Origin: Miltoncostaea oceani | GTDB taxonomy: Bacteria > Actinomycetota > Thermoleophilia > Miltoncostaeales > Miltoncostaeaceae | Assembly (NCBI RefSeq): GCF_018141545.1 | Contig: NZ_CP064358.1 | Coordinates: 1-46,598 of the forward strand | Direction: 5' to 3' | DNA: 46,598 nucleotides | In this document: positions 11,242 to 45,412 of the stretch, piece after piece | Numbering within the stretch: the first letter of the stretch is position 1 | Layout of the letters: every line of letters begins with the position of its first letter | Notes under the pieces: model-generated | Database searches by the model: none | What the model saw: the letters and a program-made list of their open reading frames with translations, nothing else | What the model was told of the DNA's origin: nothing | Program-made: the position numbers and the translations under genes

Positions 11242-12080
11242 CCGGGTTCGGGGCCTTCCCCGCCACGGAACTTGCGCCAGTCGGCGGGGCGCTTCTCCTG
11301 GAAGGAGGCGATCCCCTCCGCCGGCTCGACGCCGTGGACGTGGTTGAGGGCCACCAACTCCAACCCGTGCTGGACGGCGCCGTAGAGCTGGTCGGTCTGG
11401 GCGTTCAACGCGATCTTCGCCAACCGCAGGCCCTGGGGGCTGCGGCGGAGGATCTGGTCGCACCACGCATCGACCTCGGCGTCGAGGTCCCCGTCGGGGA
11501 CGACCTTGTTCACCAGGCCCATCTGGAGGGCCTCCTCGGCGGTGTACTGGCGGGTGAGGTAGAGGATCTCCCGGGCCTTCTTCTCCCCGACCGTGGCGGG
11601 CAGGAGCTGGCACCCCCACCACAGGGGGGCCGACCCGATCTTCGGGCCCGCCTGGCCGAAGCGGCCGGACTCCCCCGTGATCGTGAGGTCACAAAGGACG
11701 TTGAGTTCGTTGCCGCCGCCGATGCAGTAGCCGCGGACCTTCACCACGATCGGCTTGCCGTTGTTGCGGATCGCCAGGCCGAGGCGGTCGTGGAGGTGGT
11801 GCAGGGCCCGCTTCTGGGCGAGGGTGCGGGTCGGGTCGCGGACGTCGCCGCCGACGCAGAACGCCCGGTCCCCCGCCCCGGTGAAGACGATCACCCCGAC
11901 CGCCTCGTCGTCGGCGGCGGCCTCGAAGGCCTCGGCGAGTTCCCGGATGGTCTGGGAGCGGAACGCGTTCAGGCGGTCGGGTCGGTTGATGGTGATCGTC
12001 GCCCGGCCACCTGCGACCTCGTAGAGGATGTCCTCGAAGCTGGGAACGGCGGACCTCGGGAGGGATCGTGGCGCGGGCAC
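11238..12080 (-). CDS. Enoyl-CoA hydratase/isomerase-family protein, MenB/BadI-like
   Basis: Crotonase-fold acyl-CoA enzyme, 280 aa. It resembles 1,4-dihydroxynaphthoyl-CoA synthase (MenB) and 2-ketocyclohexanecarboxyl-CoA hydrolase (BadI) more than simple enoyl-CoA hydratases. Evidence is FEDILYE at the N-terminus, ITINRPDRLNAFR, TGAGDRAFCVGGD (oxyanion-hole region), VRGYCIGGGNELNVLCDLTI, FGQAGPKIGS, VGEKKAREI and a C-terminal FQEKRPADWRKF. No other menaquinone genes are in the window, so a ring-opening or ring-forming role in catabolism is possible. The start at GTG 12080 is uncertain by a few codons. It heads a crotonase-cofG-cofH transcript through 4-nt overlaps, an unexpected partner for F420 genes. 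Confidence 0.82.
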   Translation of the reverse strand: MPAPRSLPRSAVPSFEDILYEVAGGRATITINRPDRLNAFRSQTIRELAEAFEAAADDEAVGVIVFTGAGDRAFCVGGDVRDPTRTLAQKRALHHLHDRLGLAIRNNGKPIVVKVRGYCIGGGNELNVLCDLTITGESGRFGQAGPKIGSAPLWWGCQLLPATVGEKKAREILYLTRQYTAEEALQMGLVNKVVPDGDLDAEVDAWCDQILRRSPQGLRLAKIALNAQTDQLYGAVQHGLELVALNHVHGVEPAEGIASFQEKRPADWRKFRGGEGPEPG

Positions 12081-17525: not shown

Positions 17526-19040
17526 GTGCGCATCGTCGTCTGCGGGGGCGGCACCGCCGGGTGCGTCGCCGCCGCGCGCCTCTCCGAGGACCCCGCCCAC
17601 GAGGTGACGCTCCTCGAGGTCGGCCCGCACTACCGCCCGGGGGAGTGGCCGCCGGAGCTGGCGCACTCGCACCGGATCATCAAGGAGACCCACGACTGGG
17701 GGTACCAGGCCCGCGCCGGGGCGTCGCCCCGCCTCGTGCACGTCCCCCGCGGCCGGGTGGTGGGCGGGTCCTCCGTCACGAACGGCGCGATCGCCCTGCG
17801 CGGCCACCCCGAGCACTACGACGAGTGGGACGACCTCGTCGACGGGTTCGGGTGGGACAGCTGGCTGCCGTGGTTCCGGGCGATCGAGGCGGACCGCGAC
17901 TTCGGGGACGCCGACTGGCACGGCGACGCCGGCCCGATCCCCGTCGGGCGGTACCCGCGGCCGTGGATGGAGATGCAGGAGCGCTTCGCCGAGGCGGCGC
18001 TCTCCGCCGGCCACGGGTGGGTCGACGACCACAACGCCCCCGGGGCGGTCGGCATCGGCCCGATCCCCCTGAACATGGTCGACGGCCGCCGCCAGACCCC
18101 CGCCGACCGGTACCTCGACCCCGCCCTCGCGCGCCCCAACCTGACGTTGCGGACCGGGGTCCTCGTCGACCGGGTCGAGGTGGCGGGGGACCGGGTGCGG
18201 GCCGTGGTCGTCACGGGCCCCGACGGGTCCACGGAGATCCCCGCCGACGCCGTCGTGATGGCGCTCGGGACGTACGCCACCCCGGCGGCGCTGCTGCGCT
18301 CCGGCATCGGGCCCGCCGACGAGGTCGGCCGCCACGGCATCACCCCCGTCGCCGAGGTCCCCGGGGTGGGCCGGGGGATGCAGGACCACCCGAAGGTGTC
18401 GTACCGCTTCGAGCTCGCGCTGGAGGCCCCCCCGTGGCCGAACCCCTGGTACCAGTGCCTCCTCACCGGCGCCCACGAGGTCGGCGGGGAGCGGCGCGTC
18501 TACCAGGTGATGCCGTACTCGGGGCAGGTCGACGGGGGCCAGCGCTTCACGGACCTCAACGTCCAGGTCGCCGACGCCCGGTCGCGGCGGGGGGCGGTGC
18601 GGCTGCAGGGGACCGACCCGGCGCTGCAGCCCCGCATCGAGATGGGCTGGTTCCTCGAGCCGTCGGACCGGGCGGCGGCCGTCGCCGCCGGGAGGCGGCT
18701 GATGGAGGTCGCCCGCCAGCCGGCCCTCGCGGCGGTGCTGACCCCGTGGCCGGGCCTCGACGACCCCGACCAGGTGCTCCGCACCGTCGAGACGTTCCAC
18801 CACCCGGTGGGGAGCTGCCGGATGGGCCGCGACGACGACCCCGACGCCGTCGTCGACGCCCGCGGACGGGTCCGCGGCGTCGAGGGCCTCTGGATCATGG
18901 ACGCCTCCGTCATCGCCCGCGTCCCGTCGGCGAACACCCACCTCGCCGTCATCGCCCTCGCCGAGCGCCTCTGCGCCGGCTTCCCCGGGACGGCCGCGGG
19001 GACCCCCGGCGGTGCGGTGGGGACGACCGGAACGACATAA
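17526..19040 (+). CDS. GMC-family FAD alcohol oxidoreductase (choline dehydrogenase-like)
   Basis: Glucose-methanol-choline family flavoenzyme, 504 aa. The N-terminal FAD fold starts at once ([19 protein letters not shown]), followed by the GMC signature [18 protein letters not shown], the second signature region [19 protein letters not shown], and the C-terminal catalytic stretch [10 protein letters not shown] plus [15 protein letters not shown]. It oxidises an alcohol to an aldehyde or ketone. Downstream aldehyde dehydrogenases (20049, 21469) could take the product onward. GTG 17526 is the natural start. A -10-like CATAAT overlaps its stop region. Confidence 0.9.
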
Positions 19041-19615: not shown

Positions 19616-20052
19616 CGCCGGCCACCGCCTCCTGGGAGGTCACCCTCCTGCGGCGGCCCCCGGGTGCGCAGCGCCCGCGGGTCGCCGCCCGGGTGGTCCT
19701 CCAGGCCCCCGACCTCGCGCACGCCCAGGAGGCCGCCGAGGCCGCCCTGGAGGAGCGCCGCTCCGACGAGTCGCGGTGGTCGCTGGGGGTGCTGCGGCCG
19801 TTGACGCCGATGGCGCCGGGGACGCACCGGTACCGTGCCGTCTTCGCGTTGTGGGAGGCCGGGGAGGACCGCTTCGTCCGCCGCGACGTCCACCACCTGG
19901 ACGTGTGGGCCGCCGACGCCCAGAGCGCCCGCCGCCTCGCCCAGCAGGAGATCCGCGGCGTCGAGGGGTACGAGCCGGCGTGGCGGATCCGCCAGGTCGC
20001 CCGCCTCGACCCGCCCCGGGCACGCGGGGCCGCCGGGGGCCGCCGGGCGTGA
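19612..20052 (+). CDS. Small protein of two tandem ~57-residue repeats, probable CTG start
   Basis: Unrecognised protein, 146 aa if started at CTG 19612. It looks like an internal duplication. Unit 1 ([11 protein letters not shown] ... [14 protein letters not shown] ... [10 protein letters not shown]) and unit 2 ([14 protein letters not shown] ... [12 protein letters not shown] ... [10 protein letters not shown]) each have a strand, strand, helix, strand pattern, like a small alpha/beta sandwich. Unit 1 is complete only if translation begins before GTG 19693, and the only upstream candidates are CTGs. CTG 19612 overlaps the cyclophilin stop, but GAGGAGG is then only 1 nt away; CTG 19648 with GGGAGG 8 nt upstream is the alternative. 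The next gene overlaps by GTGA. Confidence 0.65.
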
Positions 20053-21443
20053 GCGACCCGGTGCGGCGCCCGTTGATCACCGGCGCCGGCCGGGTCGAGA
20101 CGGCCGGGTGGACGCCGATCCACGCCCGCGCCGACGGGTCCCTGATCGCGGAGGTCGCGGAGGCCGACGCCGGGGACGTCGACCGCGCCGTCCGCGCCGC
20201 CGACGCCGCCTGGCCGGCGTGGGCGGCCCTCCCGCCCCCCGAGCGGGCGCGGGCCCTCACCGCATACGCCGCCCTCGTCGATGCCCACCAGCCGCACCTC
20301 GCCGACCTCGTCCACCGCGAGACCGGCAAGCCCCTCGGGGAGGCGCAGGCCGAGGTCGCCCGCGCCGCCGAGGTCATCCACCACTTCGCCGCCGAGGCGG
20401 AGCGGATGTGGACGCAGCAGATGCCGGGGGCGACCCTCGCGACGGGCAGCTGGGTGCGTCCCGCCCCCCTCGGGGTGGTCGCCGCGATCACCCCCTGGAA
20501 CTTCCCCGTCGCCCTCGTGGTGTGGAAGCTCGCCCCCGCCCTCGCCGCCGGGTGCGCCGTCGTCGTGAAACCGGCGATCGAGGCGCCCCTCGCGGCGTGG
20601 GCGTTGTGCGACCTCGCCGAGCGGTCCGGGCTGCCGGAGGGCCTCGTCTCCTGCCTCACCGGCGACGGGCCCCTCATCGGGGAGGCCCTGTCGACCCACC
20701 CCCGGGTGGCGAAGGTCGCGTTCACGGGGTCGCGGCGGGTCGCGGAGCGGATCGCCGGGTGGGCGTCGCCGCGCCTGAAGGCCCTGTCGCTGGAGCTCGG
20801 CGGCCACGGTGCCCTGGTGGTGATGCCCGACGCCGACCTCGACGTCGCCGCGGAGGTCGCGACGATGCAGGGGTACGTCAACTCGGGGCAGGCGTGTTAC
20901 GCCGTGAACCGGGTCCTCGTCCCACCGGGCCTGCGGGGCGACCTCCTCGAGCGGATGCGCGCCCGGATCGCCGACATCACGCTCGGGCCGATGACCACCG
21001 ACCGGGGCCTCGCCCGCCACCACATGCTCCTCGACGAGGCCCGCGGCCACGACGGCGTCGTCGTCGAGGGCGGTGAGGAGGTCGCCCCCGGGCGGCTGTC
21101 CCCCGCCCTCGTCACCGGCGCCGGGCCGGGGGTGCGGCTCGTCGACGAGGAGCCGTTCACCCCCATCGTCGCCGTCCTCGAGGTCCCCGACACCGCCGCC
21201 GCCGTCGCGGAGGCGAACCGCCCCGACTACGGCCTCGTGAACTACCTCGTCGGCCGGGACCTCCGCGGGGCCCTCGAGACGGCGCAGCAGCTGCGGTCGG
21301 GGACCGTCGCGATCAACGGCTGGCGGGTGGTGCTGCCCTACGCCCCGTACGCGGGGTGGCGGGGGTCGGGGGTCGGGTGCGAGCTGGGACGGCCGGGCCT
21401 GGAGGCCTTCGTCCACTGGCAGCACCTGCGCGTCCTCGCCTGA
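20049..21443 (+). CDS. NAD(P)-dependent aldehyde dehydrogenase
   Basis: 464-aa aldehyde dehydrogenase, converting an aldehyde to the acid. N151 in AITPWNFPVAL, E249 in LSLELGGHGAL and nucleophile C283 in NSGQACYAVNR are all in place. Overall it resembles succinate-semialdehyde dehydrogenase types. GTG 20049 overlaps the preceding gene's stop. The gene converges on a second, diverged aldehyde dehydrogenase, with a short GCCGG/CCGGC stem in the 25-nt gap. Substrate unknown. Confidence 0.9.
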   Translation: MSDPVRRPLITGAGRVETAGWTPIHARADGSLIAEVAEADAGDVDRAVRAADAAWPAWAALPPPERARALTAYAALVDAHQPHLADLVHRETGKPLGEAQAEVARAAEVIHHFAAEAERMWTQQMPGATLATGSWVRPAPLGVVAAITPWNFPVALVVWKLAPALAAGCAVVVKPAIEAPLAAWALCDLAERSGLPEGLVSCLTGDGPLIGEALSTHPRVAKVAFTGSRRVAERIAGWASPRLKALSLELGGHGALVVMPDADLDVAAEVATMQGYVNSGQACYAVNRVLVPPGLRGDLLERMRARIADITLGPMTTDRGLARHHMLLDEARGHDGVVVEGGEEVAPGRLSPALVTGAGPGVRLVDEEPFTPIVAVLEVPDTAAAVAEANRPDYGLVNYLVGRDLRGALETAQQLRSGTVAINGWRVVLPYAPYAGWRGSGVGCELGRPGLEAFVHWQHLRVLA

Positions 21444-21468: not shown

Positions 21469-22788
21469 CTAGGCCCCCGGGGCCTCCCCGGCGCGGTGGA
21501 CCCGGCGGGCGAAGACGAGCTGCTCGATCTTCGGGCGGGCGCCGGCGGTGCCGCTGTCGCCGACGCCGCCGACGACCAGGTGGGCGTCCTGGTAGAGGGG
21601 TCCCTCGTCGACGAGGACCCGGGCGGCGCGGAGCCGCGGGACGATCGCCTCACCGGGCCCGAAGACCGCCGCCCCCAACGCGAAGGGGGTGTCGTTCGCG
21701 AGCGTGAGGGCGTCCTCGGCGTCGTCGACGAGCACCACCGCCCGCAGCGGCGCGAACGTCTCGTCCCGCCACAACGACACCCCGAGGGCGTCGCGGTCGA
21801 GGTGCACGATCGTCGGCGTGAAGAACGGGCCCCGCTCCCCCTCCCCCACCACGATCCGGCCGCCGTGGGCGAGGGCCTCGGCGAGGGCGGCGCGGGCCCC
21901 CGCCCGGGCGGGCCCCTCCGCGAGCGGCCCGAGGTCGGTCGCCGGGTCGTCCGGGTCCCCGAGCCGCAACGCCGCGACGGCGGCGCGCAGGCGGGGGGCG
22001 TAGTCGTCCCACACCGACCGCTCCACGATCATCCGCTTCGCCGCCATGCACAGCTGCCCGGCGTTCGCGAAGCCCCCGAGGGCCGCGGCGGCGGCGGCGG
22101 CGTCGAGGTCGGCGCCCGCCAGGACGATCATCGCGTCGTTGCCGGAGCCCTCCGCGATGTACGGCCGGAGGGGGACCCCGTCGGCGTACGCCGCCCCCAG
22201 GCCGGCGAGGTGGCGTTTGCAGGTCGCCGTCGACGCGTGCGCGACGACGGCGTGGACCCCCGGGTCCCAGACGAGGGGCTCCGCCGCCGGGCCGGGGGCG
22301 TCGACGACGACGACGGCGTCGTCCGGCCACGGGCCGGTCAACGCGGCGAGGACCCGGCCGGTGGTGTCCCGCACCCGGGAGGAGGGGCGGCTGACGAGGG
22401 CGTTGCCGGCGGCGAACGCCGACGCGGCGACGAGGGTCGGCACCCACACCGGCGAGTTCGCGGCGTGCCAGCCGAGCACCACCCCGTAGGGGGCCCACTC
22501 GAGGGTCGTCGTCCCCGACACCGACGGGACGGGCCGCGGGCGGATCGCCTCCGCCAACGCCGGGAGGGCGTCGAGGAGCCCGAGGGCGGAGCGGATCTCG
22601 CGTTCCGCGAACCGCCGCGGCTGGCGGGCCTCCGCGACGGCGGCGTCGACGATGGCGTCGGCGGCGGCGGCGAGGCGGTCACGTGACCGGGCGCACAGCT
22701 CGAGGCGCACGTCGAGGGGCAACGCCGCGACCGCCGGCTGGGCGGCGGCGGCCCGGCGCACCGGCTCGGAGGGCGGGGTGACGGCCAC
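21469..22788 (-). CDS. Aldehyde dehydrogenase-family protein, diverged
   Basis: 439-aa member of the aldehyde dehydrogenase superfamily. It has YGVVLGWHAANSPVW in place of the usual ITPWNFP, a likely general-base Glu in YIAEGSGNDAMIVL and the cysteine in NAGQLCMAAKR. The changes near the cofactor site suggest a different substrate or an acylating enzyme. Start chosen at GTG 22788 because the upstream extension overlaps the divergent gene's start and looks non-coding; this is uncertain. Only 19 nt separate it from that gene. Confidence 0.8.
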   Translation of the reverse strand: MAVTPPSEPVRRAAAAQPAVAALPLDVRLELCARSRDRLAAAADAIVDAAVAEARQPRRFAEREIRSALGLLDALPALAEAIRPRPVPSVSGTTTLEWAPYGVVLGWHAANSPVWVPTLVAASAFAAGNALVSRPSSRVRDTTGRVLAALTGPWPDDAVVVVDAPGPAAEPLVWDPGVHAVVAHASTATCKRHLAGLGAAYADGVPLRPYIAEGSGNDAMIVLAGADLDAAAAAAALGGFANAGQLCMAAKRMIVERSVWDDYAPRLRAAVAALRLGDPDDPATDLGPLAEGPARAGARAALAEALAHGGRIVVGEGERGPFFTPTIVHLDRDALGVSLWRDETFAPLRAVVLVDDAEDALTLANDTPFALGAAVFGPGEAIVPRLRAARVLVDEGPLYQDAHLVVGGVGDSGTAGARPKIEQLVFARRVHRAGEAPGA

Positions 22789-22807
22789 GGCCGGGCAGGT
22801 TACCGCC

Positions 22808-23584
22808 GTGCTCCCCCCGGGGCTGCTGGTGGAGGGCACCCCCGCCGAGATCCGCGGCCACTTCCCCGCCCTCTGTCCCCTGCAGCCGGTGCGTGTGAGC
22901 GCCGGGGGGCTCGTCTGCGCCCCGCGGAGCGCCCCCGACCTCGCGGCGGCGGCCCTCGCGGGGTGCCCCCTGCCGCTGCGGCCGCTGCCGGCGGTCCCGG
23001 GGTGGCCGGACCCGCCCTCCCAGATGGTGGGCGGCTGGTACCGCCGCAGCCCCGGGCACCTCCCCGCGCCACCGGGGGTGCGTGAGCTGGTGCAGGTCCC
23101 CGGGGAGGGCTTCGGCCCCGCCGGTCACGCGACGACGGCGATGTGCCTCGCGGCGATCGACGACCTCCCGGGGGGTGCGGCGGTCGACGCGGGCTGCGGG
23201 TCGGGGCTCCTCACCCAGGCGTGGGTCGCCCTCGGCCGCGGGCCGGTGCTCGCCGTCGACCTCGACGGCCGCGCCATCGACCAGGCCGCCCGCAGCCTCG
23301 CCGTCGCCGGCCGCGGCGGGCCGGTGACCCTCCGCCGGGGGCCGCTCGGCGGCCTCACCGGCGGCGAGCTCGCCGGGCGGGTCGTCCTCGCGAACGTCCC
23401 CGCCGCCGCCCACCGCGAGCTCCTCGGCCGCGTCGACGGGGACGCCCCGCCGCGGGCGGCGGTCCTGTCGGGGATCCGCCCCCGCGACGTCGCGGACCTC
23501 GGGGCGGCGTGGGCGGACCTCGGCCTGCCGACCGTCGCCGTCGCCGACGGCGGCGGCTTCTGCTGCCTGCGGGTGGGGGCGTGA
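22808..23584 (+). CDS. SAM-dependent methyltransferase, ribosomal protein L11 methyltransferase-like
   Basis: 258-aa class I methyltransferase. The segment GEGFGPAGHATTAMCL matches the PrmA pattern xFGxGxHxTTxxCL, followed by SAM motif I AAVDAGCGSGLLTQA and acidic LAVDLDGRAID. Motif IV reads VLANVPAAAH, similar to the ANI(L)A motif of PrmA. The N-terminal ~100 residues do not resemble the PrmA substrate domain, so the target may not be L11. GTG 22808 start; the stop overlaps the MFS gene (GTGA). Confidence 0.75.
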   Translation: MLPPGLLVEGTPAEIRGHFPALCPLQPVRVSAGGLVCAPRSAPDLAAAALAGCPLPLRPLPAVPGWPDPPSQMVGGWYRRSPGHLPAPPGVRELVQVPGEGFGPAGHATTAMCLAAIDDLPGGAAVDAGCGSGLLTQAWVALGRGPVLAVDLDGRAIDQAARSLAVAGRGGPVTLRRGPLGGLTGGELAGRVVLANVPAAAHRELLGRVDGDAPPRAAVLSGIRPRDVADLGAAWADLGLPTVAVADGGGFCCLRVGA

Positions 23585-24792
23585 GCCGGGTCGGGCGGAC
23601 GTGGGCGGTCCTCGTGCTGTTCGCCCTCGGGACGAGCCTGATCACGCCCCTCATCCCCCTCTACCAGGACCGCCTCGGGTTCTCGGACACCGTCGCGACC
23701 CTCTTCCTCGGCTGCTACGTCCTCGCCCTCGTCCCGTCGATGCTGACCCTCGGGCAGCTGTCCGACCGGATCGGCCGCAAGGGGGTCCTCCTCGGCGCCC
23801 TCGCGACCCTCGCCGTCGCCCAGGCGCTGCTGATCACCGAGCCGGGGCTGCCGGGGCTGCTCGCCGCCCGGGGGATCCAGGGGATGGCGACGGGGGCGTT
23901 CTTCGGGACGTGCACCGCCTTCCTCGTCGACGGGGCACCGGCGGGGCGGGAGCCGTTCGCGTCGGCGTTGGCGTCGTTCTCGGTGCGCCTCGGCCTCGGC
24001 CTCGGCCCCGGCGTCGGCGGGGTGATCGCCCAGTACGCCGCCGACCCCCTGCGGCTCCCGTTCGAGCTGCACCTCATCGCCCTCGCCGTGGCGGCGGTGA
24101 TCGTCGCGACCCTCCCCGAGACGGTGCGGGTCCGGTCGCGGCGGCCCCTCACCCTCCGCCTCGAGGTGCCGGCGGCGGAGCGGGCGGTGTTCTGGCGGAT
24201 CCTGGTGCCCTCCGGGATGCTGTTCTCGCTCTTCGACGGCGTCGCCCTGTCCCTCATCCCCGTGTTCCTCGTCCGGACGTTGGGGGTCGACAACTACGCC
24301 GTCGTCGGCGCCGCCGGGTTCCTCGTCCTCGTGTCGGGGGCCGTCAGCCAGCTGGTGTTCCCCCGCATCCGGCCGGAGCGGGCGATCGGCGGTGGCCTCG
24401 CGGTGGCGGCGGTGACGTCGGTGGGGGTCGTCGCGTCCGCGCCGCTGGAGTCGGCGCCCCTCGCCCTCGCCTCCGTCGCGGCGACGGGGGCGGCGGCGGG
24501 CCTCGTCTTCAAGGGCGGCCTCGACCTCTGCACCCGCATCGCCCCCATCCAGGACCGCGGGAAGCTCCTCTCCAGCTACTACGTCGCCTGCTACCTCGGG
24601 GGTTTCTCGGTGCCGCTGCTGGTGGTGGGGATCCTCTCCGACGTCGTCGGCCTGACCGTCGCCCTCGCGTGCCTGTCGGGGGCGGCCGCCGTCGGGGCCG
24701 CGTGGACGGGGGTGGTGGGGCTCCGCTCCCTCGACGGGTTGCTGCCCCCACCGGGGACGCCGACCCCGGTGGGGGCACCGGGCGACGGGTAG
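23581..24792 (+). CDS. Major facilitator superfamily transporter
   Basis: 403-aa membrane protein with about twelve hydrophobic segments. The MFS motif is LGQLSDRIGRKGVLL in the first inner loop. The N-half contains GIQGMATGAFFGTCTAFLVD. Drug- or sugar-efflux-like; substrate unknown. GTG 23581 overlaps the methyltransferase stop. Its TAG stop doubles as the start of a TAGACT -10 box for the next gene. Confidence 0.87.
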   Translation: MSRVGRTWAVLVLFALGTSLITPLIPLYQDRLGFSDTVATLFLGCYVLALVPSMLTLGQLSDRIGRKGVLLGALATLAVAQALLITEPGLPGLLAARGIQGMATGAFFGTCTAFLVDGAPAGREPFASALASFSVRLGLGLGPGVGGVIAQYAADPLRLPFELHLIALAVAAVIVATLPETVRVRSRRPLTLRLEVPAAERAVFWRILVPSGMLFSLFDGVALSLIPVFLVRTLGVDNYAVVGAAGFLVLVSGAVSQLVFPRIRPERAIGGGLAVAAVTSVGVVASAPLESAPLALASVAATGAAAGLVFKGGLDLCTRIAPIQDRGKLLSSYYVACYLGGFSVPLLVVGILSDVVGLTVALACLSGAAAVGAAWTGVVGLRSLDGLLPPPGTPTPVGAPGDG

Positions 24793-24804: not shown

Positions 24805-25560
24805 ATGGCCCAGGTGTCCGACCCCGAGGCCCTCGCCGCCGTCTTCCTGGAGGCAGAGCGCGCGGTCGTCCTGACCGGCCTGCACCTGGGCGGCCCCGAG
24901 AGCCTCGACCTCACGCACGCCCACGGCGAGTGGGCGCAGCGCGCCAGCCTCGAGGCGTTCCTCACCGAACCCGCGCGGTTCTGGGAGTACTTCCACCCCA
25001 CCGCCCTCCAGATCGCGGCGCGCCGGCCGGGGCCCGCCCACGACGCCCTCGCACGCCTCGAGCGGGCGGGGCTGGTGTCGTCGCTGATCACCCAGGCCGT
25101 CGACCGCCTCCACTCCCGCGCCGGGAGCGCCGACCCCGTCGAGGTCTACGGGACGGTGCTGGTGATGCGGTGCGAGCGGTGCGGGGAGCGGTACGGGCTG
25201 CCGGAGGTCGGTGCGTTGATCGACGCGTCCGGCGACGGCGTGCCGCGGTGCACCACCAGCGACTGCGGGTACCCCCTCCGCCCCGAGGGGACCCTGTGGG
25301 GGGAGGCGCTGCCGCGGCGGGCGGTGGAGCGGGCGTGGGAGATCGCGGCGGAGGCGGACGCGTTCATCGTCCTCGACTCGGACCTGCGGACCGCCCCCAT
25401 CTCCCTCCTGCCGTCGGTGCCCCTCACCCGCGGCGCCCCCCTCGTCCTCGTCGGGGAGACACCCACCCAGTACGACCGGTACGCCCGGATGGTGGTGCGG
25501 GCCCCGAGCACCGACATCCTCACCGCCGTCGCCGACCTCATCGCCCCCGCCCCCGCGTGA
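24805..25560 (+). CDS. Sirtuin (Sir2)-fold protein lacking catalytic residues
   Basis: 251-aa protein clearly related to NAD-dependent protein deacylases: TQAVDRLHSRAGS (96-108), four zinc cysteines C123, C126, C149, C154, and LRPEGTLWGEALP (158-170) match sirtuins in order and spacing. The active site is altered, however. GAGIS is replaced by GLHLG (25-29), the Asn of TQN(V/I)D is A98, the catalytic His of the HG motif is Y115, and the GTS nucleotide-binding loop reads LDS (190-192). A deacetylase role is therefore doubtful; it may bind a nucleotide or protein without deacylation. Downstream SDR overlaps by GTGA. Confidence 0.8.
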   Translation: MAQVSDPEALAAVFLEAERAVVLTGLHLGGPESLDLTHAHGEWAQRASLEAFLTEPARFWEYFHPTALQIAARRPGPAHDALARLERAGLVSSLITQAVDRLHSRAGSADPVEVYGTVLVMRCERCGERYGLPEVGALIDASGDGVPRCTTSDCGYPLRPEGTLWGEALPRRAVERAWEIAAEADAFIVLDSDLRTAPISLLPSVPLTRGAPLVLVGETPTQYDRYARMVVRAPSTDILTAVADLIAPAPA

Positions 25561-26327
25561 CCGGCCCCACCCCCCTCGCGGGGACCGCGGCGATCGTGAC
25601 GGGCGCCTCCGCCGGGTTGGGGGAGATCATGGCCCGCGGCCTCGCCGGCGCCGGCTGCGCCGTCCTGATCGCCGCCCGCCGGGTCGACCGCCTCCGGGCC
25701 GTCGCCGACGCGATCACCGAGGAGGGTGGGCGGGTGGTCGCGCACCCCGCCGACCTTCGCGACCCCGGCCACGCCCGGGACCTCGTCGACGCCGCCGTCG
25801 CGGAGTTCGGACGCCTCGACGGGGTCGTCCTGAACGCGGCGACGGCGACCGTCGCCCCCGCCGAGGCGGAGGACCCCGCGGCGTTCGCGGACGTGATGGC
25901 CGTGAACGTCAGCGCCCAGGCGGCCCTCGCCGGCGCCGCGGCCCGGGTGATGATCGACGCGGGACGGGGCGGGTGGATGGTCCTGATGAGCTCCATCCTC
26001 GGCCGGAAGGCGGCGACGGGTCCCGGTGTCGCCGCCTACGTCGCGTCGAAGATCGCGGTGGAGGGCCTCACCCGTGAACTCGCCCGCCAGTGGGCGCCGC
26101 ACGGGATCCGGGTGAACGCGTTGGCGCCCGGCTACTTCCCCACCGAGATGAACGCCCCCATGACCGCCGACCCCGGCCGGCGGGAGGCGCTCCTCGCCCG
26201 CACGCCGATGGGGCGCAGCGGGGAACCCGCCGACCTGACGGGGCCGCTGCTGTTCCTCGCCTCCGACGCGTCGCGGTTCGTCACCGGCCACACCCTCCCC
26301 GTCGACGGGGGGATGTCCTGCTGGTGA
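25557..26327 (+). CDS. SDR-family oxidoreductase
   Basis: 256-aa short-chain dehydrogenase: TGASAGLG cofactor loop, NAA in place of NAG (VVLNAATATV), catalytic Ser in LMSSILG, YVASK with Tyr and Lys, and FVTGHTLPVDGGM at the end. Gluconate 5-dehydrogenase or FabG-like; substrate unknown. GTG 25557 overlaps the sirtuin-like gene's stop, making the methyltransferase-MFS-sirtuin-SDR run one dense cluster. Confidence 0.9.
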   Translation: MTGPTPLAGTAAIVTGASAGLGEIMARGLAGAGCAVLIAARRVDRLRAVADAITEEGGRVVAHPADLRDPGHARDLVDAAVAEFGRLDGVVLNAATATVAPAEAEDPAAFADVMAVNVSAQAALAGAAARVMIDAGRGGWMVLMSSILGRKAATGPGVAAYVASKIAVEGLTRELARQWAPHGIRVNALAPGYFPTEMNAPMTADPGRREALLARTPMGRSGEPADLTGPLLFLASDASRFVTGHTLPVDGGMSCW

Positions 26328-26361: not shown

Positions 26362-26790
26362 CTAGGAGGGCTGCGCCTCCGCGGCGGCGGCGGCGTCGGT
26401 GTCGACCACGAACTTCTGCGAGTAGTAGATGTCGCCCTCGTGGCCGAGCTTCATCCGGCGGAGCGTCGCCTTGACGCGGGTCCCGACGGTGACGTCCTCG
26501 GGGGCGACCCCGACGACGGGGGCGGGCATCGCGACGCCCTCGTCCATGGTGATGTGCCCGACGACGTACGGCTCCTGGCCGAGGAAGTCACGTGGCGGGT
26601 AGTAGACCACCGTGTAGTTGGAGAGCTCGCCCTTGCCGGAGAGCTCCTCCTCGACGAGGGTGTCCGACCCGCAGTAGTAGCAGTGGTGGTGCTCCCACCA
26701 CGGGCTGAGGTGGCCGTTCGCGCAGCGCATGGCGTAGAGCCGCAGCTTCGGGGGGCCGAGGCGGGAGAACTCGATCGCGGAGACCGTCAC
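26362..26790 (-). CDS. DUF35 OB-fold protein with zinc ribbon, thiolase partner
   Basis: 142-aa acyl-CoA-associated DUF35 protein: an N-terminal rubredoxin-like zinc ribbon (C23 and H27, then C37 and C40 in HCYYCG) and a C-terminal OB fold (YTVVYYPPRDFLGQEPYVVG, VGTRVKATL). In archaeal HMG-CoA formation and in steroid side-chain cleavage such proteins bind tightly to a thiolase-type enzyme and help hold the acyl-CoA. The upstream thiolase gene ends 3 nt before this GTG, so the two should form a pair. Last gene of the six-gene operon. Confidence 0.87.
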   Translation of the reverse strand: MTVSAIEFSRLGPPKLRLYAMRCANGHLSPWWEHHHCYYCGSDTLVEEELSGKGELSNYTVVYYPPRDFLGQEPYVVGHITMDEGVAMPAPVVGVAPEDVTVGTRVKATLRRMKLGHEGDIYYSQKFVVDTDAAAAAEAQPS

Positions 26791-26793
26791 GGG

Positions 26794-27963
26794 CTAGCCC
26801 TCCAGGCGCTGGTAGACGTGGATCGCGCCGACGGCACCCGGGCCGCCACGGCACGCGGAGACGCCGATCGCGGCGTCGGCGCGCTGCATGTCCTTCGGGG
26901 CGGTGCCGCGGAGCTGCTCGACGATGTCGACCGCCTGCGTCGCCCCCGTCGCGCCGAGGGGGTGGCCCTTGCAGAGCAGGCCGCCGGAGAGGTTCACCCC
27001 GACCTTCCCGTCGATCCAGGTGGAGCCGTCGGCGGCGCCCTGCCAGCCCTTGCCCTTCTCCGCGAAGCCGAGGCCCTCGATGCCGAGGGGCTCCTGGATC
27101 GCGAAGGAGTTGTAGATCTCGGCGACGTCGACGTCGTCGGCGGTGATCCCCGCCATCGCGTACGCCCGCTGGGCGGGTTCCGCGAAGAGGCGGTGGGCGT
27201 CGTCGAGGGTGTCCGTCGCGGCGTACCACGTGCCCGTCGCCATCTGGCTGGCGGTGACGTACACCTGCGGCTTGTCGGGCTGGTCGCGGAGGATCTCCTC
27301 GCGGCACAGCACCAGCGCCGAGCTTGCGTCGGTCATGGGGCAGACCTCGTAGAGCTTCAGGGGGTCGGCGACCTTCGCGGACCGCATGACCTCCTCCACC
27401 GTGCACTCGAAGCGCAGGTGGGCGAACGGGTTGCGAGCCCCGTAGTGGTGGTTCTTGACCGAGGTGTGGGCGAGGTCCTCCTCGGTCAGGCCGTACGTCT
27501 GCATGTACTTGCGGGCCGTCAACGCCACCCCGGAGGGGAACGTCAACCCGGAGAAGTACTCCTCCTTCGAGTCGGCGGCCTGGGCGATGATCGACGTGCC
27601 CTCGACGGTGGCGAGGTCGTTCATCTTCTCGACGCCGAGGACCATGACGGTGTCGTAGAGGCCGGAGAGGATCGCGACGCAGCCGAGGTGCAGGGCCCAG
27701 GCGCCGGTGCCGCAGGCGGCCTCGACGCGGACGGAGCCGGCGGGGACGACGCCGAGGTGGTGGGCGACCATCAGGCCCGTCGAGTTCTCGTAGTTGAACC
27801 CGACCGAGCCGACGTTGCCGACGTACAGCGACTGGATGTCCGACGGCTCGACGCCGGCGTCGGCCATCGCGGCCCGGCCCGACTCGACCGCGAGGTCGCG
27901 CAACGACTTGCCGTGCTGGATCTTGTGGGGGGTCTTCCCGATCCCGAGAACGCCGACGCGCAT
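26794..27963 (-). CDS. Thiolase (acetyl-CoA acetyltransferase/SCP2 type), residues intact
   Basis: 389-aa thiolase. Nucleophile C84 in VEAACGTGAWAL, H334 in CKGHPLGATG, and second catalytic C371 in VSACRGGPGAVG are all present, so it should condense or cleave acyl-CoAs. The NxSGG loop (VNLSGGLLCKG) is typical. ATG 27963 is chosen over the adjoining GTG 27966 because AAGGAGG ends 4 nt before the ATG and only 1 nt before the GTG. Next to an HMGCS-like gene and a DUF35 gene, an arrangement like the archaeal thiolase-DUF35-HMGCS complex. Confidence 0.9.
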   Translation of the reverse strand: MRVGVLGIGKTPHKIQHGKSLRDLAVESGRAAMADAGVEPSDIQSLYVGNVGSVGFNYENSTGLMVAHHLGVVPAGSVRVEAACGTGAWALHLGCVAILSGLYDTVMVLGVEKMNDLATVEGTSIIAQAADSKEEYFSGLTFPSGVALTARKYMQTYGLTEEDLAHTSVKNHHYGARNPFAHLRFECTVEEVMRSAKVADPLKLYEVCPMTDASSALVLCREEILRDQPDKPQVYVTASQMATGTWYAATDTLDDAHRLFAEPAQRAYAMAGITADDVDVAEIYNSFAIQEPLGIEGLGFAEKGKGWQGAADGSTWIDGKVGVNLSGGLLCKGHPLGATGATQAVDIVEQLRGTAPKDMQRADAAIGVSACRGGPGAVGAIHVYQRLEG

Positions 27964-27972
27964 CACGCCTCC

Positions 27973-28959
27973 TTAGTGCGGTTCGGCCTGGCGGCCGCGG
28001 GTCCAACGGTAGTACGTCGACAGGTCGATCGCCTCGCCCGGGATCTGCTCCGCCGTGCCCGCCGGGGCGGGGGTGCCGGTGACCTCGATCTCCTGCGCGA
28101 TCGCCTCGCCGCCGCCGTAGCCGAGGGCGATGAGGTGGTCACCCGCCGAGGCCCGGTCGAGGCCGAGGGCGAGGGCGACGCCGACGGAGGCGGCGCCGAG
28201 GTTGCCGATCTCCCCGACGAAGCTGGTGTGCTCCAGCTGCTCCGCCGAGACCCCCGACTTGCCGAGGCCCTTCAGGGTCGCGGGGTGGGGCTGGCTCGCG
28301 GCGACGGCCGTGTACCCGGAGGTGGGCCGCTCCGTGATCCGCTCGAGGCCCGCCAGGGCCTCCTTCGTCGTCGCCCCGTAGGCGTCGAACAGCACCTCGA
28401 GGCGGTACCGCGCCTCGGGTTCGGTGCCGAGGCGCCACACGTCGTAGACCTCACGCGACGCGCGGGCGGTCGCGCCGAGGCGGGCGACGCCGCCGGACGC
28501 GCCGACGAGGAACGCCGTCGCGGCCCCGGCGGAGAGGGTGTCGCAGACGCGGTCCTCGTAGGAGACCAGGTGGTCCGCGGCCACGACCAGCGCCGGCGGG
28601 TTGCCCTCACCGGCGAGGGCGCCGGCGATCTCCAGGGCGTCGAGGAGGGACCCCGAGTGGCCGCCGACGTCGATCGGCAGGACGCCGTCGAGGCCGAGGG
28701 TCCGCGCGAGGGTCGCCGACAGCTTGCGCAACCCGAAGGGCGGCGACTGGCTGACGGTGATGACGACCCCCGGTGCCTCCGCCCCGGCGAGCGCCGCGAC
28801 GGAGGCCTCGTAGGCCATCGTGAGGGTGTCCTCGTCGAGCGCCGGGGTGCACAGCGCCTTGGAGCGCGGGCGGCCCGGGCGGCCGAAGAAGGACTGGATC
28901 TCCTTGAGGGGGGCCCGGTAACGGGGCAGGTACGCCCCGTACCGGAGGATGTCCGCCAC
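27973..28959 (-). CDS. HMG-CoA synthase/KAS III-like protein without the usual cysteine
   Basis: 328-aa thiolase-fold protein resembling archaeal-type HMG-CoA synthase: ILRYGAYLPRYR at the start, LDEDTLTMAYEA, AGAATAFLVG, EIGNLGAASVGVAL with the conserved Asn, and IALGYGGGEAI near the end. Where the acyl-accepting Cys normally sits, the sequence is DVGGHSGS (97-104), with His or Ser instead. Claisen condensation by the classical route is therefore unlikely. It may be a structural partner of the adjacent thiolase/DUF35 or use another mechanism. Starts at GTG 28959, 2 nt after the ligase gene stop. Confidence 0.78.
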   Translation of the reverse strand: MADILRYGAYLPRYRAPLKEIQSFFGRPGRPRSKALCTPALDEDTLTMAYEASVAALAGAEAPGVVITVSQSPPFGLRKLSATLARTLGLDGVLPIDVGGHSGSLLDALEIAGALAGEGNPPALVVAADHLVSYEDRVCDTLSAGAATAFLVGASGGVARLGATARASREVYDVWRLGTEPEARYRLEVLFDAYGATTKEALAGLERITERPTSGYTAVAASQPHPATLKGLGKSGVSAEQLEHTSFVGEIGNLGAASVGVALALGLDRASAGDHLIALGYGGGEAIAQEIEVTGTPAPAGTAEQIPGEAIDLSTYYRWTRGRQAEPH

Positions 28960-28961: not shown

Positions 28962-30620
28962 CTAGCGCTTGATCGTGATGCCGGCGGCCTCACGGTCGAA
29001 CGTGTCGGCGGTGATGCCCTCATCACGCAGCTTCACCTTCTGCACCCGCTCGGTCGGCGTCTTGGGGAGCTCGGGGACGAACCGGATGTAGCGGGGCACC
29101 ATGAAGTACGGCATCCGCTCCGCCATCCAGTGGGTGTACTCGATCGGGTCGGGGGCCTCCCCCTCGGGGATGCAGACGATCATGATCTCGTCCTCGCTGG
29201 AGGCACCCTCACCGGCCTTCACGCCGATCGCGGCGGCCTCCTTGATGTTCGGGTGGTCCGAGGCCTGACGCTCGACCTCCATCGAGGAGACGTTCTCGCC
29301 ACGGCGCCGGATGTAGTCCTTCACCCGGTCCATGAAGTAGAAGTACCCCTCCTCGTCCATGCGGCCGAGGTCGCCGGTGTGGAGCTTCAGGTTCCGGAAG
29401 TCCTCGGCGGTCTTCTCCGGCATGCCGTAGTAGGCGCGCATCACGATGTTCGGGATCTTCATGTCCACCACGATCTCCCCCGGCGTGTTCGGGGGCAGCG
29501 GCCGGTCGGTGCCGGGCTCCACGATCGTCACCTCATACCCGGGGTTCGCCTTGCCCATCGACCCCGCGACAGCCGGCTTGGTCGGGTCCATGTAGGTCGC
29601 CATGCCGGTCTCGGTGAGGCCGTAGCCCTCGATGAACTTGACGCCGAACCGCTCCTGGAACTCGTTGTAGATGTCCTTCGGGGCCGGTGCCGCGAAGCAC
29701 GTGTGGACCTTGTGGGCGCGGTCCAGGTCCGACGGCGGGATGTTCCAGATGAAGTACGACACCGCCCCGATCGAGTTGAAGACCGTCGCCTCGGCGTCCT
29801 TGATCTGCTGCCAGAACTTGCTGGAGGAAAAGCGCTCCACATAGGCGACCCGGCCGCCGGCGACAAGCGCCGGGTACCCCGACAGGACCTGGGCGTTGGA
29901 GTGGAACAACGGCAGACAACTGAAGAACGTGTCCTCCGCCAGGGACTCCACCGTCTTGCCGGCCGTCGCCGACACCACCTCCAACAGGCCACGCGCCGAG
30001 AAGTAGTCGGCGGCGTTCTGCTTGATGACACCCTTCGAGCGGCCCGTCGTGCCGGAGGTGAACATGATCCGGGCGTCATCGGTCCAGCTGTAGGTGATCC
30101 CATCCGGCTCACCGTCAGAGCCCTCCATCAACGCCTCGAGGGGCTCCCACTTCAGCGACGGGTCCGGGCCCTCCTGGTTGCCCGTCCTCATCACGATCAC
30201 GTGCTCCAGGAGGGGGAGCTCGCCCTTGATGAGGTCGAGGCGGTCCAGGTACAGGTCCGAGATCACCAGCTTCTTGGCCTCGACGAGGTTGATCGTCCAG
30301 GACAGGAAATCACCCTTGTAGGCGGTGTTGATCGAGCTCATCACCGCACCCGCCTTGAGGATCCCGAACCACACCGGGATGAACTCCTCACAGTTCGGGA
30401 GCATCACGCTCACCGACTCACCCGGCTGCACGCCACGGGCGACCAACGAGTTGGCGATCCGGTTGGCGCGGGCGTTCACCTCGCCGTAGCTCACCCACGG
30501 GTTGTCGGCGAACTTGAGGTAGTCCCGGTCCGGCGTCTCGCTCGCCCGCGTCTTCAGGACCTCGGCCAGGACCCACTTGGTGGGATCCTCCCGCGCATAC
30601 CAGTCACTCCACTCGCCCAT
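28962..30620 (-). CDS. AMP-forming acyl-CoA synthetase/ligase
   Basis: 552-aa ANL-superfamily enzyme activating a carboxylic acid to its CoA thioester through an acyl-adenylate. Motifs: FTSGTTGRSKGV (P-loop), EGYGLTETG, HTGDLGRMDEEGYFYFMDR with the adenylate-binding Asp, YIRRRGENVS hinge, and the C-terminal catalytic Lys probably in ERVQKVKLRD. Closest in feel to CaiC or medium-chain ligases. ATG 30620 has GAGGAG close upstream. It would feed the thiolase/DUF35 enzymes encoded around it. Confidence 0.92.
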   Translation of the reverse strand: MGEWSDWYAREDPTKWVLAEVLKTRASETPDRDYLKFADNPWVSYGEVNARANRIANSLVARGVQPGESVSVMLPNCEEFIPVWFGILKAGAVMSSINTAYKGDFLSWTINLVEAKKLVISDLYLDRLDLIKGELPLLEHVIVMRTGNQEGPDPSLKWEPLEALMEGSDGEPDGITYSWTDDARIMFTSGTTGRSKGVIKQNAADYFSARGLLEVVSATAGKTVESLAEDTFFSCLPLFHSNAQVLSGYPALVAGGRVAYVERFSSSKFWQQIKDAEATVFNSIGAVSYFIWNIPPSDLDRAHKVHTCFAAPAPKDIYNEFQERFGVKFIEGYGLTETGMATYMDPTKPAVAGSMGKANPGYEVTIVEPGTDRPLPPNTPGEIVVDMKIPNIVMRAYYGMPEKTAEDFRNLKLHTGDLGRMDEEGYFYFMDRVKDYIRRRGENVSSMEVERQASDHPNIKEAAAIGVKAGEGASSEDEIMIVCIPEGEAPDPIEYTHWMAERMPYFMVPRYIRFVPELPKTPTERVQKVKLRDEGITADTFDREAAGITIKR

Positions 30621-30677: not shown

Positions 30678-31118
30678 CTAGGCGGCGACGAACTTCGGCA
30701 GCGTGATCTCGTCGGTGACGTCGTGGAAGACCAGTCGGACCTTCATGCCGATCTTCACGTCGTCGGGGTCGATGGAGGGGTAGCCCTCCTCGTCCTTGAC
30801 GAGGTTCGACATGAGGCGCACGCCCTCGTCCAGGTCGATCAGCGCGACGGTGTGCGGCGGGTCGCCCTTGTAGGCCTTGCTCGGGCCGATGAAGTGCACC
30901 GAGTAGGTGTAGACGGTCCCGTTCCCCTTCGACTCGGTCCACTGGGTGGGCTCGAGCGTGCCGGGGACGAGGGCCCGGGGGTACCAGAACGGCTTCCCCT
31001 GGGCGTCGGTCGGCAGCAGGAAGGTGTGCTCGTGCATCGCCTTCCACCAGTGGTCCCCCTCGGGACGCATGTCGGGGAGGGGCTTGGTGTAGGCCGGCTT
31101 GGTGGTCTCGTCGCTCAT
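30678..31118 (-). CDS. DUF35 OB-fold protein without zinc cysteines
   Basis: 146-aa DUF35-type protein: N-terminal helix (PEGDHWWKAMHEH), a region aligned with the zinc ribbon but containing no Cys (FLLPTDAQGKPFWYPRALVPG), and an OB fold (GTVYTYSVHF, VALIDLDEGVRLMSNLV, IGMKVRLVFHDV). Loss of the zinc site contrasts with the second DUF35 at 26362. The upstream thiolase-like gene ends 17 nt before, and that partner also lacks catalytic cysteines, so the pair resembles Ltp2/DUF35-type lyases more than true thiolases. Shine-Dalgarno AAGGGGAG. Confidence 0.83.
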   Translation of the reverse strand: MSDETTKPAYTKPLPDMRPEGDHWWKAMHEHTFLLPTDAQGKPFWYPRALVPGTLEPTQWTESKGNGTVYTYSVHFIGPSKAYKGDPPHTVALIDLDEGVRLMSNLVKDEEGYPSIDPDDVKIGMKVRLVFHDVTDEITLPKFVAA

Positions 31119-31135: not shown

Positions 31136-32365
31136 CTAGGCCGCCGACGGCGGTTCGCTCGACAGGACCAGCGCGCTCGTCGCGGCGAGGATGCCGCCCG
31201 AGCCCGTGGTGATGGCGAGCTTGGCGTTCGGCACCTGGTGGTCGCCGCCACCGCGTGCGGTGTCGTCGGCCTCGCCCCGCAGCTGCAGGGTCGCCTCGAC
31301 GATGTGGTGCATCGCGCCGAGGTGCGCCTGGCGGATCAGGCCGCCGTGGGTGTTCATGGGGAGGGCGGCGCCGAGCTTGGCGTTGCCCTCGAGCACCCAG
31401 TCACCGGCCTCGCCGGGACCGCAGACGCCGATGCCCTCGAGGGCGATGAGCGGGGTGAAGCTGAACGAGTCGTAGATCTCGGCGACGTCGAGGTCCTTGA
31501 CGGTGACGCCGGCGACCTCGAGGGCGCGGCGGCCGGCGCGGCCGAGGCCCTGGCGGACGCCGTCGACCGACTCGGCGGAGGTGATGTACTGGTGCGAGAA
31601 GCCCTCGCCGATGCCCGTGATGTAGACGGGCTTCGGGCGCATCGACTTGGCGCGGTCGGCGGTCGTCACGATGAACGCCGCGGCGCCGTCGGAGACCAGC
31701 GAGCAGTCCATCGCGTGGAACGGGGTGGCGATCCACCGGTCGTTCATGACGTCCTCGATGGTGACGACGTCGCGGAGCATCGCGTTCCACTTGAGCGCGG
31801 CGTGCTCGGACTGGGTCGCCACGACCGCGGCGAGCGCCTCCTGCGGCACGTTGTGCTCGTACATGTACCGCTGGGCGAGGAGGCCGTAGCCGCCGATGGT
31901 GGTGAGGCCGTAGGGGGCCTCGTAGGCGCCGTGGCTCATCTCGCGGGCCATGGCGATCATCCCGGAGGAGCTGATCCCCGACCGGGTGTTGTCACCACGG
32001 ACGCAGAGGACCGTCTCGGCGAGGCCGGCGTCGATGGCGAGGGCGGCCTGGACCGCCATCAGCGGCGCGGTGGCGCCACCGACGGCGACGGAGGCGAAGT
32101 AGCCCGGCTCCATCCCGAGGTAGTCGGCGAAGGTCGTCGCGTGCATCAGCGTCGACTCGACGAACGAGAACGCGGTGACCATCCCGTCGACGTCGCCGAG
32201 GGTGATGCCGGCGTCGTCCAGGGTGATCTTGGTGACCTCGGCGAGGAGCTGGAACGACCCGCGCCCCTCGAGCTTGCCCTGCTCGGTCTCCCCCACCCCG
32301 GCGATGACGATGCCCTTTCCGAGCATCCGTCGTGCTTCGCGCAGGTTGGGCGTGGCCTCGCTCAT
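31136..32365 (-). CDS. Thiolase-like protein lacking catalytic cysteines (SCP2/Ltp type)
   Basis: 409-aa thiolase-superfamily protein. The nucleophile position reads SVAVGGATAP (92-101), and the C-terminal CxG is replaced by TTGSGG, so neither catalytic Cys remains. The loop NTHGGLIRQAHLGAM keeps the His region. Related proteins (Ltp2 with a DUF35 partner) act as retro-aldolases on steroid side-chain CoA esters; a similar C-C lyase role here is inference. First gene of a six-gene minus-strand operon, with a good promoter and AGGAGG ahead of ATG 32365. Confidence 0.85.
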   Translation of the reverse strand: MSEATPNLREARRMLGKGIVIAGVGETEQGKLEGRGSFQLLAEVTKITLDDAGITLGDVDGMVTAFSFVESTLMHATTFADYLGMEPGYFASVAVGGATAPLMAVQAALAIDAGLAETVLCVRGDNTRSGISSSGMIAMAREMSHGAYEAPYGLTTIGGYGLLAQRYMYEHNVPQEALAAVVATQSEHAALKWNAMLRDVVTIEDVMNDRWIATPFHAMDCSLVSDGAAAFIVTTADRAKSMRPKPVYITGIGEGFSHQYITSAESVDGVRQGLGRAGRRALEVAGVTVKDLDVAEIYDSFSFTPLIALEGIGVCGPGEAGDWVLEGNAKLGAALPMNTHGGLIRQAHLGAMHHIVEATLQLRGEADDTARGGGDHQVPNAKLAITTGSGGILAATSALVLSSEPPSAA

Positions 32366-40650: not shown

Positions 40651-41535
40651 CTAGGCCGCCGACTCCTGCCGGCGGTGGTGCTGTGCCTCGAACTCGGCGG
40701 GGCTGAGGTAACCGAGGCCCGAGTGCCGGCGGCGTGGGTTGTACCAACTCTCGATGTAGTCGTAGATCGCGGTCCGCGCCTGCTGGCGGGTCGGCCAGGA
40801 GCGTCGGTCGATCAGCTCGGTCTTGAGGGTCGACATGAACGACTCGGCGAGGGCGTTGTCATAGGCATCGCCACGTGAGCCCATCGACTGGGCGATCCCC
40901 GCCTCGCGCAGGGCGCGTCCGCAGGCGAAGCTCGTGTACTGGGATCCCCGGTCGCTGTGGTGCACCAGCTGGCCGGGCTCCACCTGGCGCCGCCACAGCG
41001 CCATCTGGATCGCATCGACGACCAGTTCGGCCCGCAGGTCCTCGCGCATCGACCAGCCGACGACGCGGCGGCTGTAGGCATCGACGACCACCGCGACATA
41101 GAGCCACCCCGCCCAGGTCCGCACGTAGGTGATGTCAGCCACCCACAACGCGTTCGGGCACTCGGCGAGGAAGCGTCGCTCCACCAGATCCGCGGCCGGG
41201 GCCCGCAGCGGGTCGCGCTCGGTGGTGCGCTGGAAGCGGCGCCGGTGGGTGCCCTCGATCCCCGCCTCGCGCATCAACCGGGCGATCCGCTTACGGCCGT
41301 GGCGGTGGCCGTCAGCACGCAGTTCGGCGTGGATGCGGGCGGCGCCGTAGGTGCCGCGGCTCATCCGATGCACCGCGCGGAGCCGCTCGAGGAGCTGTTC
41401 ATCCTCGCGCCGGCGGCTCGACGGTGGTCGGGCGGCCCACGAGTAGAAGCCCGAGCGTGAGACGCCGAGCGTCCTGCAGAGGGTGGAGACCCCGTGTGCG
41501 GCCTTCTCGGCGGCGATGAACCGGTAGAGGCTCAC
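40651..41535 (-). CDS. IS3-family transposase OrfB (DDE integrase domain)
   Basis: 294 aa. HTH_21-type N-terminal part (SRGTYGAARIHAEL, GRKRIARLMREAGIEG) and an rve-type integrase core with the catalytic triad Asp in WVADITYV, Asp in HHSDRGSQYTS and Glu in NALAESFMSTLK. Ends with the usual YNPRRRHSGLGYLSPAEFE. Starts at GTG 41535, overlapping the orfA stop by GTGA. It may also be made as an OrfAB fusion by -1 slippage on a run of six A at 41573-41568 near the end of orfA; the -1 frame is open through to orfB. Confidence 0.93.
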   Translation of the reverse strand: MSLYRFIAAEKAAHGVSTLCRTLGVSRSGFYSWAARPPSSRRREDEQLLERLRAVHRMSRGTYGAARIHAELRADGHRHGRKRIARLMREAGIEGTHRRRFQRTTERDPLRAPAADLVERRFLAECPNALWVADITYVRTWAGWLYVAVVVDAYSRRVVGWSMREDLRAELVVDAIQMALWRRQVEPGQLVHHSDRGSQYTSFACGRALREAGIAQSMGSRGDAYDNALAESFMSTLKTELIDRRSWPTRQQARTAIYDYIESWYNPRRRHSGLGYLSPAEFEAQHHRRQESAA

Positions 41536-41834: not shown

Positions 41835-41898
41835 GTGGACCTCCTTGGAGAAGCATCATCGCCTCTCCGATGGTGTCCGCAGAAGCGGGGCGACCCCA

Positions 41899-45317: not shown

Positions 45318-45345
45318 AGCGCTGTTCCTCCTTGGAATGGCGTCA

Positions 45346-45389: not shown

Positions 45390-45412
45390 TTGATCACGAT
45401 CTGACCTAGTCC

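Follow-up and report, generated by a model that had tools for sequence, protein, structure and literature searches.

A sirtuin fold stripped of its NAD site, probably retained as a non-catalytic binding subunit of a bacterial metabolic locus

The window analysed here, a stretch of 46,598 nucleotides of Miltoncostaea oceani DNA, carries a gene for a sirtuin-like protein of 251 aa (24805..25560, +), which raises the question of what a sirtuin does once the residues that bind NAD and carry out deacylation have been replaced. The reading frame was verified from its ATG at 24805 to the stop codon ending at 25560, and a gene-calling or assembly artefact is ruled out by the presence of the gene in 31 genomes. 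The protein matches the Pfam family SIR2 (PF02146) with an E value of 5e-22 and 79.2 bits (gathering cut-off 24). Since this match covers profile positions 37–179 of 180 only, the first NAD-binding part of the protein contributes nothing to the score. The closest solved relative is Sir2Af2 (1ma3, E 9.5e-31), and the best CobB model of NCBIfam reaches 151 bits, below its equivalog cut-off of 320. The structure, predicted using 35 distant sirtuins, has a mean pLDDT of 92.8, with values down to 51 at residues 31–40 (the old cofactor loop), and aligns with Sir2Tm (3jr3) at a Z score of 30.1 and an rmsd of 1.7 across 236 residues; the structure matches listed for it (Foldseek/VIA) are sirtuins throughout. 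This comparison, which an earlier note on the same DNA had proposed, bears out the assignment made there: according to the model, the protein is a complete sirtuin fold, Rossmann-like and zinc-ribbon, over its whole length. By descent and fold we file it in the sirtuin fold family and, judging from its sequence, outside the NAD-dependent deacylases; it is referred to below as the pseudo-sirtuin.

The residue changes were followed in an alignment that combined 26 orthologues with 29 canonical sirtuins from the class and with five sirtuins of a third type (L073–L077), the latter not counted among the 29; the residue table is given without L091 and L001. Numbering and roles of the NAD-contact residues are those that we take from published sirtuin structures, in which A26, G27, S29, R37, G191 and S193 presumably contact the NAD diphosphate and ribose. 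We found that Ser29, Asn98 and Gly191 are all lost in 26/26 orthologues and all kept in 29/29 canonical sirtuins, a contrast much too consistent to be accidental. In the cofactor-binding loop remnant (residues 25–43; 24877..24933, +), the GAGIS..SGIPDFR signature is lost in every orthologue: GAG occurs in none of them, Ala26 is always replaced, Gly27 is left in 5/26 and Ser29 of GAGxS has become Gly in all. Relative to the family's 19 canonical paralogues, the Thr24–Trp43 stretch is shorter by one residue and the 44–59 stretch by five, again in 26/26. The change of GAG to GLH at residues 25–27 and the replacement of the catalytic Asn by Ala98 (TQN to TQA; 25096..25098, +), both described in the earlier note, hold, and position 98 is Ala in 18 orthologues, Ser in eight and Asn in none. 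The replacement of the catalytic His by Tyr115 (25147..25149, +), in turn, is real in the window and in L033, L035 and L038 (4/26), but it is not a shared loss, as His is present in the other 22. The canonical G-S/T-S motif aligns with D191-S192-D193 (25375..25383, +), so that the reported change of GTS to LDS is off by one residue (G191D/S193D rather than L190-D191-S192); position 191 is Asp in 25 orthologues and Glu in one, versus Gly in 29/29 canonical sirtuins, and Ser193 is left in 2/26.

What has been kept is equally consistent. The four zinc-ribbon cysteines (Cys123, Cys126, Cys149 and Cys154; 25171..25266, +), already recognized in the earlier note, are each present in 26/26 orthologues, and Gly25, Trp43, His79, Gln97, Asp100 and Glu167 are likewise invariant. 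The former V-V-x-F-G-E peptide-binding strand reads T-L-W-G-E (residues 163–167; 25291..25305, +), with Trp at position 165 in all 26 orthologues and Phe in all 29 canonical sirtuins. As to whether the substitutions are common to the orthologues, a question posed in the earlier note, the losses of Ser29, Asn98 and Gly191 are, and Tyr115 is not; orthologues with the canonical residues, which would have spoken for a simple decayed copy, are absent from the 26, save for the catalytic His. As a control, sirtuin ORFs on viral contigs were scored with crude regular expressions: of 63 distinct ORFs, 62 keep GxGxS and 62 keep QN. These ORFs came from 80 of 175 relatives and were found with a search pattern that permitted Ala or Ser at the Asn position.

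Including the source genome, 26 of 61 related genomes carry an orthologue; apart from the window protein itself, these are 50–85% identical to it. The next near-full-length matches in these 61 genomes (37–43% identity) are canonical sirtuins, and the second sirtuin of the source genome, encoded on a different contig and 40% identical, is canonical as well. When a profile of the 26 orthologues was run against 399 genomes of the class, 31 scored at 377–442 bits and the next match at 203 bits, and this gap was used to define the orthologue set. All 31 belong to one taxonomic family, 42 genomes of which were examined. Seven of 396 genomes sampled from the phylum score at E <= 1e-60, every one from this same family; within the sampled genomes, the confinement of profile matches to one family points to a family-specific innovation. 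The residue counts given above cover 26 of the 31 orthologues, spanning eight genera, as those of G153, G158, G161, G164 and G171 were found later and are unaligned. A scan of 84,980 named species with a single-sequence query and exact 8-residue patterns, which is a weak test, returned one distant relative only; the orthologue profile found no match in the viral sequences scanned, and the plasmids searched held only sirtuins below 60% identity. In the sirtuin tree, which was midpoint-rooted, carries a long-branch warning and omits L091 as a repeat of L071, the orthologues group in a single clade (support 100/100) next to the family's canonical sirtuins, the stem measuring 1.82 changes per site. 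Five genomes of the family encode the third sirtuin type (L073–L077), in which the canonical residues are present and the second pair of zinc cysteines is preceded by an insertion.

The pseudo-sirtuin gene lies in a metabolic locus. Upstream of it are genes for aldehyde dehydrogenase a (19776..21443, +; PF00171, true start inside the ORF), aldehyde dehydrogenase b (21469..22839, –; PF00171), divergent from the next gene, a PrmA-like methyltransferase (22652..23584, +; PF06325, E 1e-13, likely true start near 22778), and an MFS transporter or exporter (23581..24792, +; PF07690, E 7.8e-37), and it is followed by an SDR oxidoreductase gene, identified by a profile match (25557..26327, +). The methyltransferase stop and MFS start overlap by four bases, as do the pseudo-sirtuin stop and SDR start, and 12 bases separate the MFS and pseudo-sirtuin genes; owing to this spacing, the four genes appear to form a single operon in the window. 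On the opposite strand follow genes encoding a DUF35/OB-fold protein (26362–26790, –), an SCP2-type thiolase (26794–27966, –), an HMG-CoA-synthase-like protein lacking the catalytic Cys (27973..28959, –), an acyl-CoA ligase (28962–30620, –), a second DUF35/OB protein (30678–31118, –) and a second thiolase (31136–32365, –). The catalytic Cys is kept in aldehyde dehydrogenase a (13/13 orthologues), in aldehyde dehydrogenase b (19/19) and in the SCP2-type thiolase (Cys85, 21/21), and the methyltransferase conserves the SAM-binding DxGCGxG and the PrmA GxxFG..H.TT motifs. As far as catalytic cysteines in the thiolases and aldehyde dehydrogenases and the SAM motif of the methyltransferase can tell, the neighbours of the pseudo-sirtuin are not decaying.

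Two of these genes deserve separate mention. The catalytic Cys position of the HMG-CoA-synthase-like protein is occupied by Ser in the window and by Ala, Pro or Gln in 20/20 orthologues; as the solved relative 9skh, annotated for 2,4-diacetylphloroglucinol biosynthesis, likewise has no Cys in the alignment, such a Cys-less protein may be ordinary for thiolase/DUF35/HMG-CoA-synthase-like complexes. Placed beside a thiolase and a DUF35 protein, it is similar to the diacetylphloroglucinol proteins (9skh) and to the thiolase/HMG-CoA synthase complex of archaea (6esq). The acyl-CoA ligase carries the motif PKTPTERVQK in the window and in all 14 orthologues long enough to score. Many acyl-CoA ligases have a PKxxxGK-type lysine at that place. 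A possible role of the pseudo-sirtuin as a reader of the acetylatable lysine in this ligase was considered, and no claim is based on the motif.

How far this arrangement is conserved differs from gene to gene. The MFS gene stands directly upstream of the pseudo-sirtuin gene in 20 of the 25 other loci; genus g2 (four loci) and L036 have none, and in three of these g2 loci the methyltransferase gene itself adjoins the pseudo-sirtuin gene. The SDR gene is adjacent in only 5/26 loci (the window and four of the 25 others) and is dropped as a functional partner for this reason. The link to neighbouring genes suggested in the earlier note therefore stands for the methyltransferase and the MFS transporter but not for the SDR. 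The PrmA-like gene was found in 28 of the 31 genomes with the pseudo-sirtuin versus 2 of the 11 without it (Fisher p 2.3e-5, with related genomes treated as independent), that is, in 30/42 family genomes; a 31st match above threshold, in G023, is another paralogue. Four of the five exceptions to the pairing of the two genes lie at contig ends: in G011 and G030 the methyltransferase or MFS gene is cut by the contig end, and in G023 and G171 the contig ends at the MFS gene. In the fifth, G034, no contig break is present and the methyltransferase seems truly absent beside the pseudo-sirtuin. In G008 the two genes lie on opposite strands. At locus L037, an ORF that by eye resembles a membrane glycosyltransferase (4958–6364) is inserted between them on the opposite strand.

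Other members of the locus follow the same distribution. An MFS orthologue was detected in 27/42 family genomes, and the HMG-CoA-synthase-like gene in 24 of the 31 genomes with the pseudo-sirtuin versus none of the 11 without it (Fisher p 7.4e-6, related genomes again being counted as independent). The single-contig genome G003, of the same genus, is without the pseudo-sirtuin, methyltransferase and HMG-CoA-synthase-like genes, and its MFS protein is only 41% identical. Judged by this gene content, the locus is gained or lost largely as a unit, and since it co-occurs as a whole, co-occurrence singles out no one partner.

Loss of active-site residues is what a decayed copy heading for loss would display, and the gene was not found by profile search in 11 of the 42 family genomes. 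We nevertheless regard decay as scarcely credible and reject it: 26 orthologues from eight genera, with intact frames, share the same losses and the same derived residues and form one clade. Of the 60 columns conserved in canonical sirtuins (in at least 27/29), 25 are kept in the orthologues (in at least 24/26), nine have switched and become fixed anew, either as residues or as shared deletions, and 26 are relaxed, which argues for selective loss rather than general decay. A further 20 columns, one of them the start Met, are near-invariant in the orthologues and variable in canonical sirtuins, Trp178, Pro206, Arg225 and Tyr226 being among the new constraints. The dN/dS ratio of the pseudo-sirtuin is below 0.2 (0.079–0.191 in the 25 highest-identity of 35 close pairs), comparable to that of the canonical paralogue (0.09–0.214, 11 pairs), and by these estimates the clade is under purifying selection after the loss of the residues. 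Read from sequence comparison, the pattern is one of duplication, one burst of change and new constraint. The description of the protein as a conserved inactive sirtuin is thus well supported, if by inference, from the NAD-site loss common to 26/26 orthologues, their single clade and purifying selection.

A protein retained in this way could still bind the cofactor. A degenerate sirtuin with weak affinity for NAD, ADP-ribose or a related nucleotide might serve as a redox or NAD sensor; the earlier note put forward a sensor role, and the intact Rossmann-like fold (Z 30), the invariant Gly25, Gln97 and Asp100 and the abundance of NAD-dependent dehydrogenases in the locus are in keeping with it. 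We consider this quite doubtful, as the positions taken to contact NAD are replaced in most or all orthologues, residue 191 is acidic in 26/26 and the cofactor loop is six residues shorter. An ADP-ribosyltransferase or NADase comparable to SirTM or to a SIR2 defence effector is very improbable. According to the accessible text of PMC4518038, SirTM also lacks the catalytic His (Gln137) and acts on a protein of its own operon, but its activity requires Asn118 and NAD, whereas here the Asn and the NAD-site residues are lost; furthermore, no macrodomain or GcvH-like gene occurs among the annotated neighbours. Identity with SirTM was rejected for the lost Asn and the absence of a macrodomain gene among the neighbouring window genes scanned, and a defence effector was set aside as very unlikely, with PADLOC matches that are marginal only, the best (PDC-S65, E 1.5e-4) extending over 48 residues. 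More room, though not much, must be left for a new NAD-independent enzyme in which the remodelled cleft (His115, Asp191, Gln97, Asp100 and Arg225/Tyr226) would catalyse some other step of the pathway, acting on a different substrate. Survival of His115 in 22/26 orthologues keeps it in view, as do the refixation of nine canonical positions, the 19 newly near-invariant residues other than the start Met and the setting among metabolic enzymes. Yet four orthologues, the window protein among them, carry Tyr115, an alternative set of catalytic residues is not evident, and model confidence is lowest in the former cofactor loop, so that we judge this enzyme possible but rather unlikely.

The reading that we favour, and hold to be probable, is that an ancient sirtuin duplicate was repurposed as an NAD-independent, non-catalytic binding subunit of the metabolic locus. 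The sirtuin shape is kept, the residues for NAD and deacylation are lost and the gene travels with one metabolic cluster, which makes a binding job more likely than the usual chemistry. A duplication would have predated the radiation of the bacterial family, with one copy retained at another place in the genome as a canonical NAD-dependent deacylase and the other losing the NAD-binding loop and the catalytic Asn in a single fast change. The changed copy would then have been fixed, by new constraint, in a non-catalytic role within a locus that comprises aldehyde dehydrogenases, a methyltransferase, an exporter, a thiolase/DUF35/HMG-CoA-synthase-like complex and an acyl-CoA ligase. NAD-dependent deacylation would be absent from the pseudo-sirtuin, and the former peptide/acyl-lysine cleft (the Trp-Gly-Glu strand, Gln97, Asp100 and His79) may now hold a protein or an acylated ligand, so that the protein would function with a partner encoded by the same locus, as its adaptor or reader. 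The best candidate for this partner, and the most consistent companion among the genes, is the PrmA-like methyltransferase, which is probably itself a protein-lysine methyltransferase. As PrmA methylates amino groups of a protein, a lysine-recognising pseudo-deacylase beside a PrmA-like methyltransferase is plausible. Against a binding subunit count the catalytic His of 22/26 orthologues, dispensable for a purely structural role, and the two exceptional genomes, G034 without the methyltransferase and G008 with the genes on opposite strands. A bolder version, unlikely in our estimate, would make this a sirtuin class without NAD, in which the acyl-lysine cleft is a reader or docking site steering a PrmA-type protein-lysine methyltransferase or the thiolase/DUF35 complex; if true, a lysine-deacylase fold would have been recruited into a lysine-methylation or acyl-transfer module.

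Compared with canonical Sir2Tm, Sir2Af2 and CobB, the pseudo-sirtuin has the whole fold, the four zinc cysteines, Gln97/Asp100 and the G-E of the peptide strand, but is without GAGxS, DFR and the catalytic Asn and has an acidic residue in the GSS motif and a shorter cofactor loop. Class IIa HDACs act as readers or scaffolds. They offer an analogy in the way of working, as the deacylase fold is conserved, a catalytic residue is substituted and the protein is retained in signalling (PMC12383505, accessible text), although they are eukaryotic and unrelated in fold and chemistry. Class M sirtuins (SirTM) share with the pseudo-sirtuin the location in a metabolic operon and the lost deacylase His (here in 4/26), yet they keep Asn118 and use NAD for ADP-ribosylation, as the available part of PMC4518038 states; in that part and in the accessible text of a bacterial sirtuin review (PMC8603916), canonical sirtuins and SirTM are described as NAD-dependent enzymes. 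The His-to-Tyr change of the window protein is the natural counterpart of the laboratory mutant Sir2Tm H116Y (2h4h), which, however, was solved with peptide and NAD according to its title, whereas the pseudo-sirtuin has lost the remainder of the NAD site too and most orthologues keep the His.

Pseudoenzymes have been documented in numerous enzyme families. A natural conserved sirtuin pseudoenzyme was not found in the open-access literature searched, with most subscription papers outside its scope. With fold and zinc site kept and the NAD site lost in every aligned orthologue, the family would represent a natural separation of sirtuin binding from catalysis, and profile-based annotation as an NAD-dependent deacylase may be incorrect for its members. 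As the pseudo-sirtuin is tightly linked to one locus, its function is amenable to testing.

Elsewhere in the window, a GMC oxidoreductase gene (17526–19040, +) is close to that of the mycofactocin dehydrogenase MftG (341 bits, below the cut-off of 387), and the F420 biosynthesis genes CofD, CofH and CofG are grouped at 4313–5236 (+) and 8174–11622 (–). Ahead of the match, the CofH and CofG ORFs are extended N-terminally by about 260 and 190 residues, which perhaps reflects only upstream start codons. Together with a high G+C content, the F420 and mycofactocin-type genes would fit an actinobacterium. Two IS-type transposase ORFs (rve) lie on opposite strands at 40651–42753, near two acetoacetate decarboxylase-like genes at 44301–46438.
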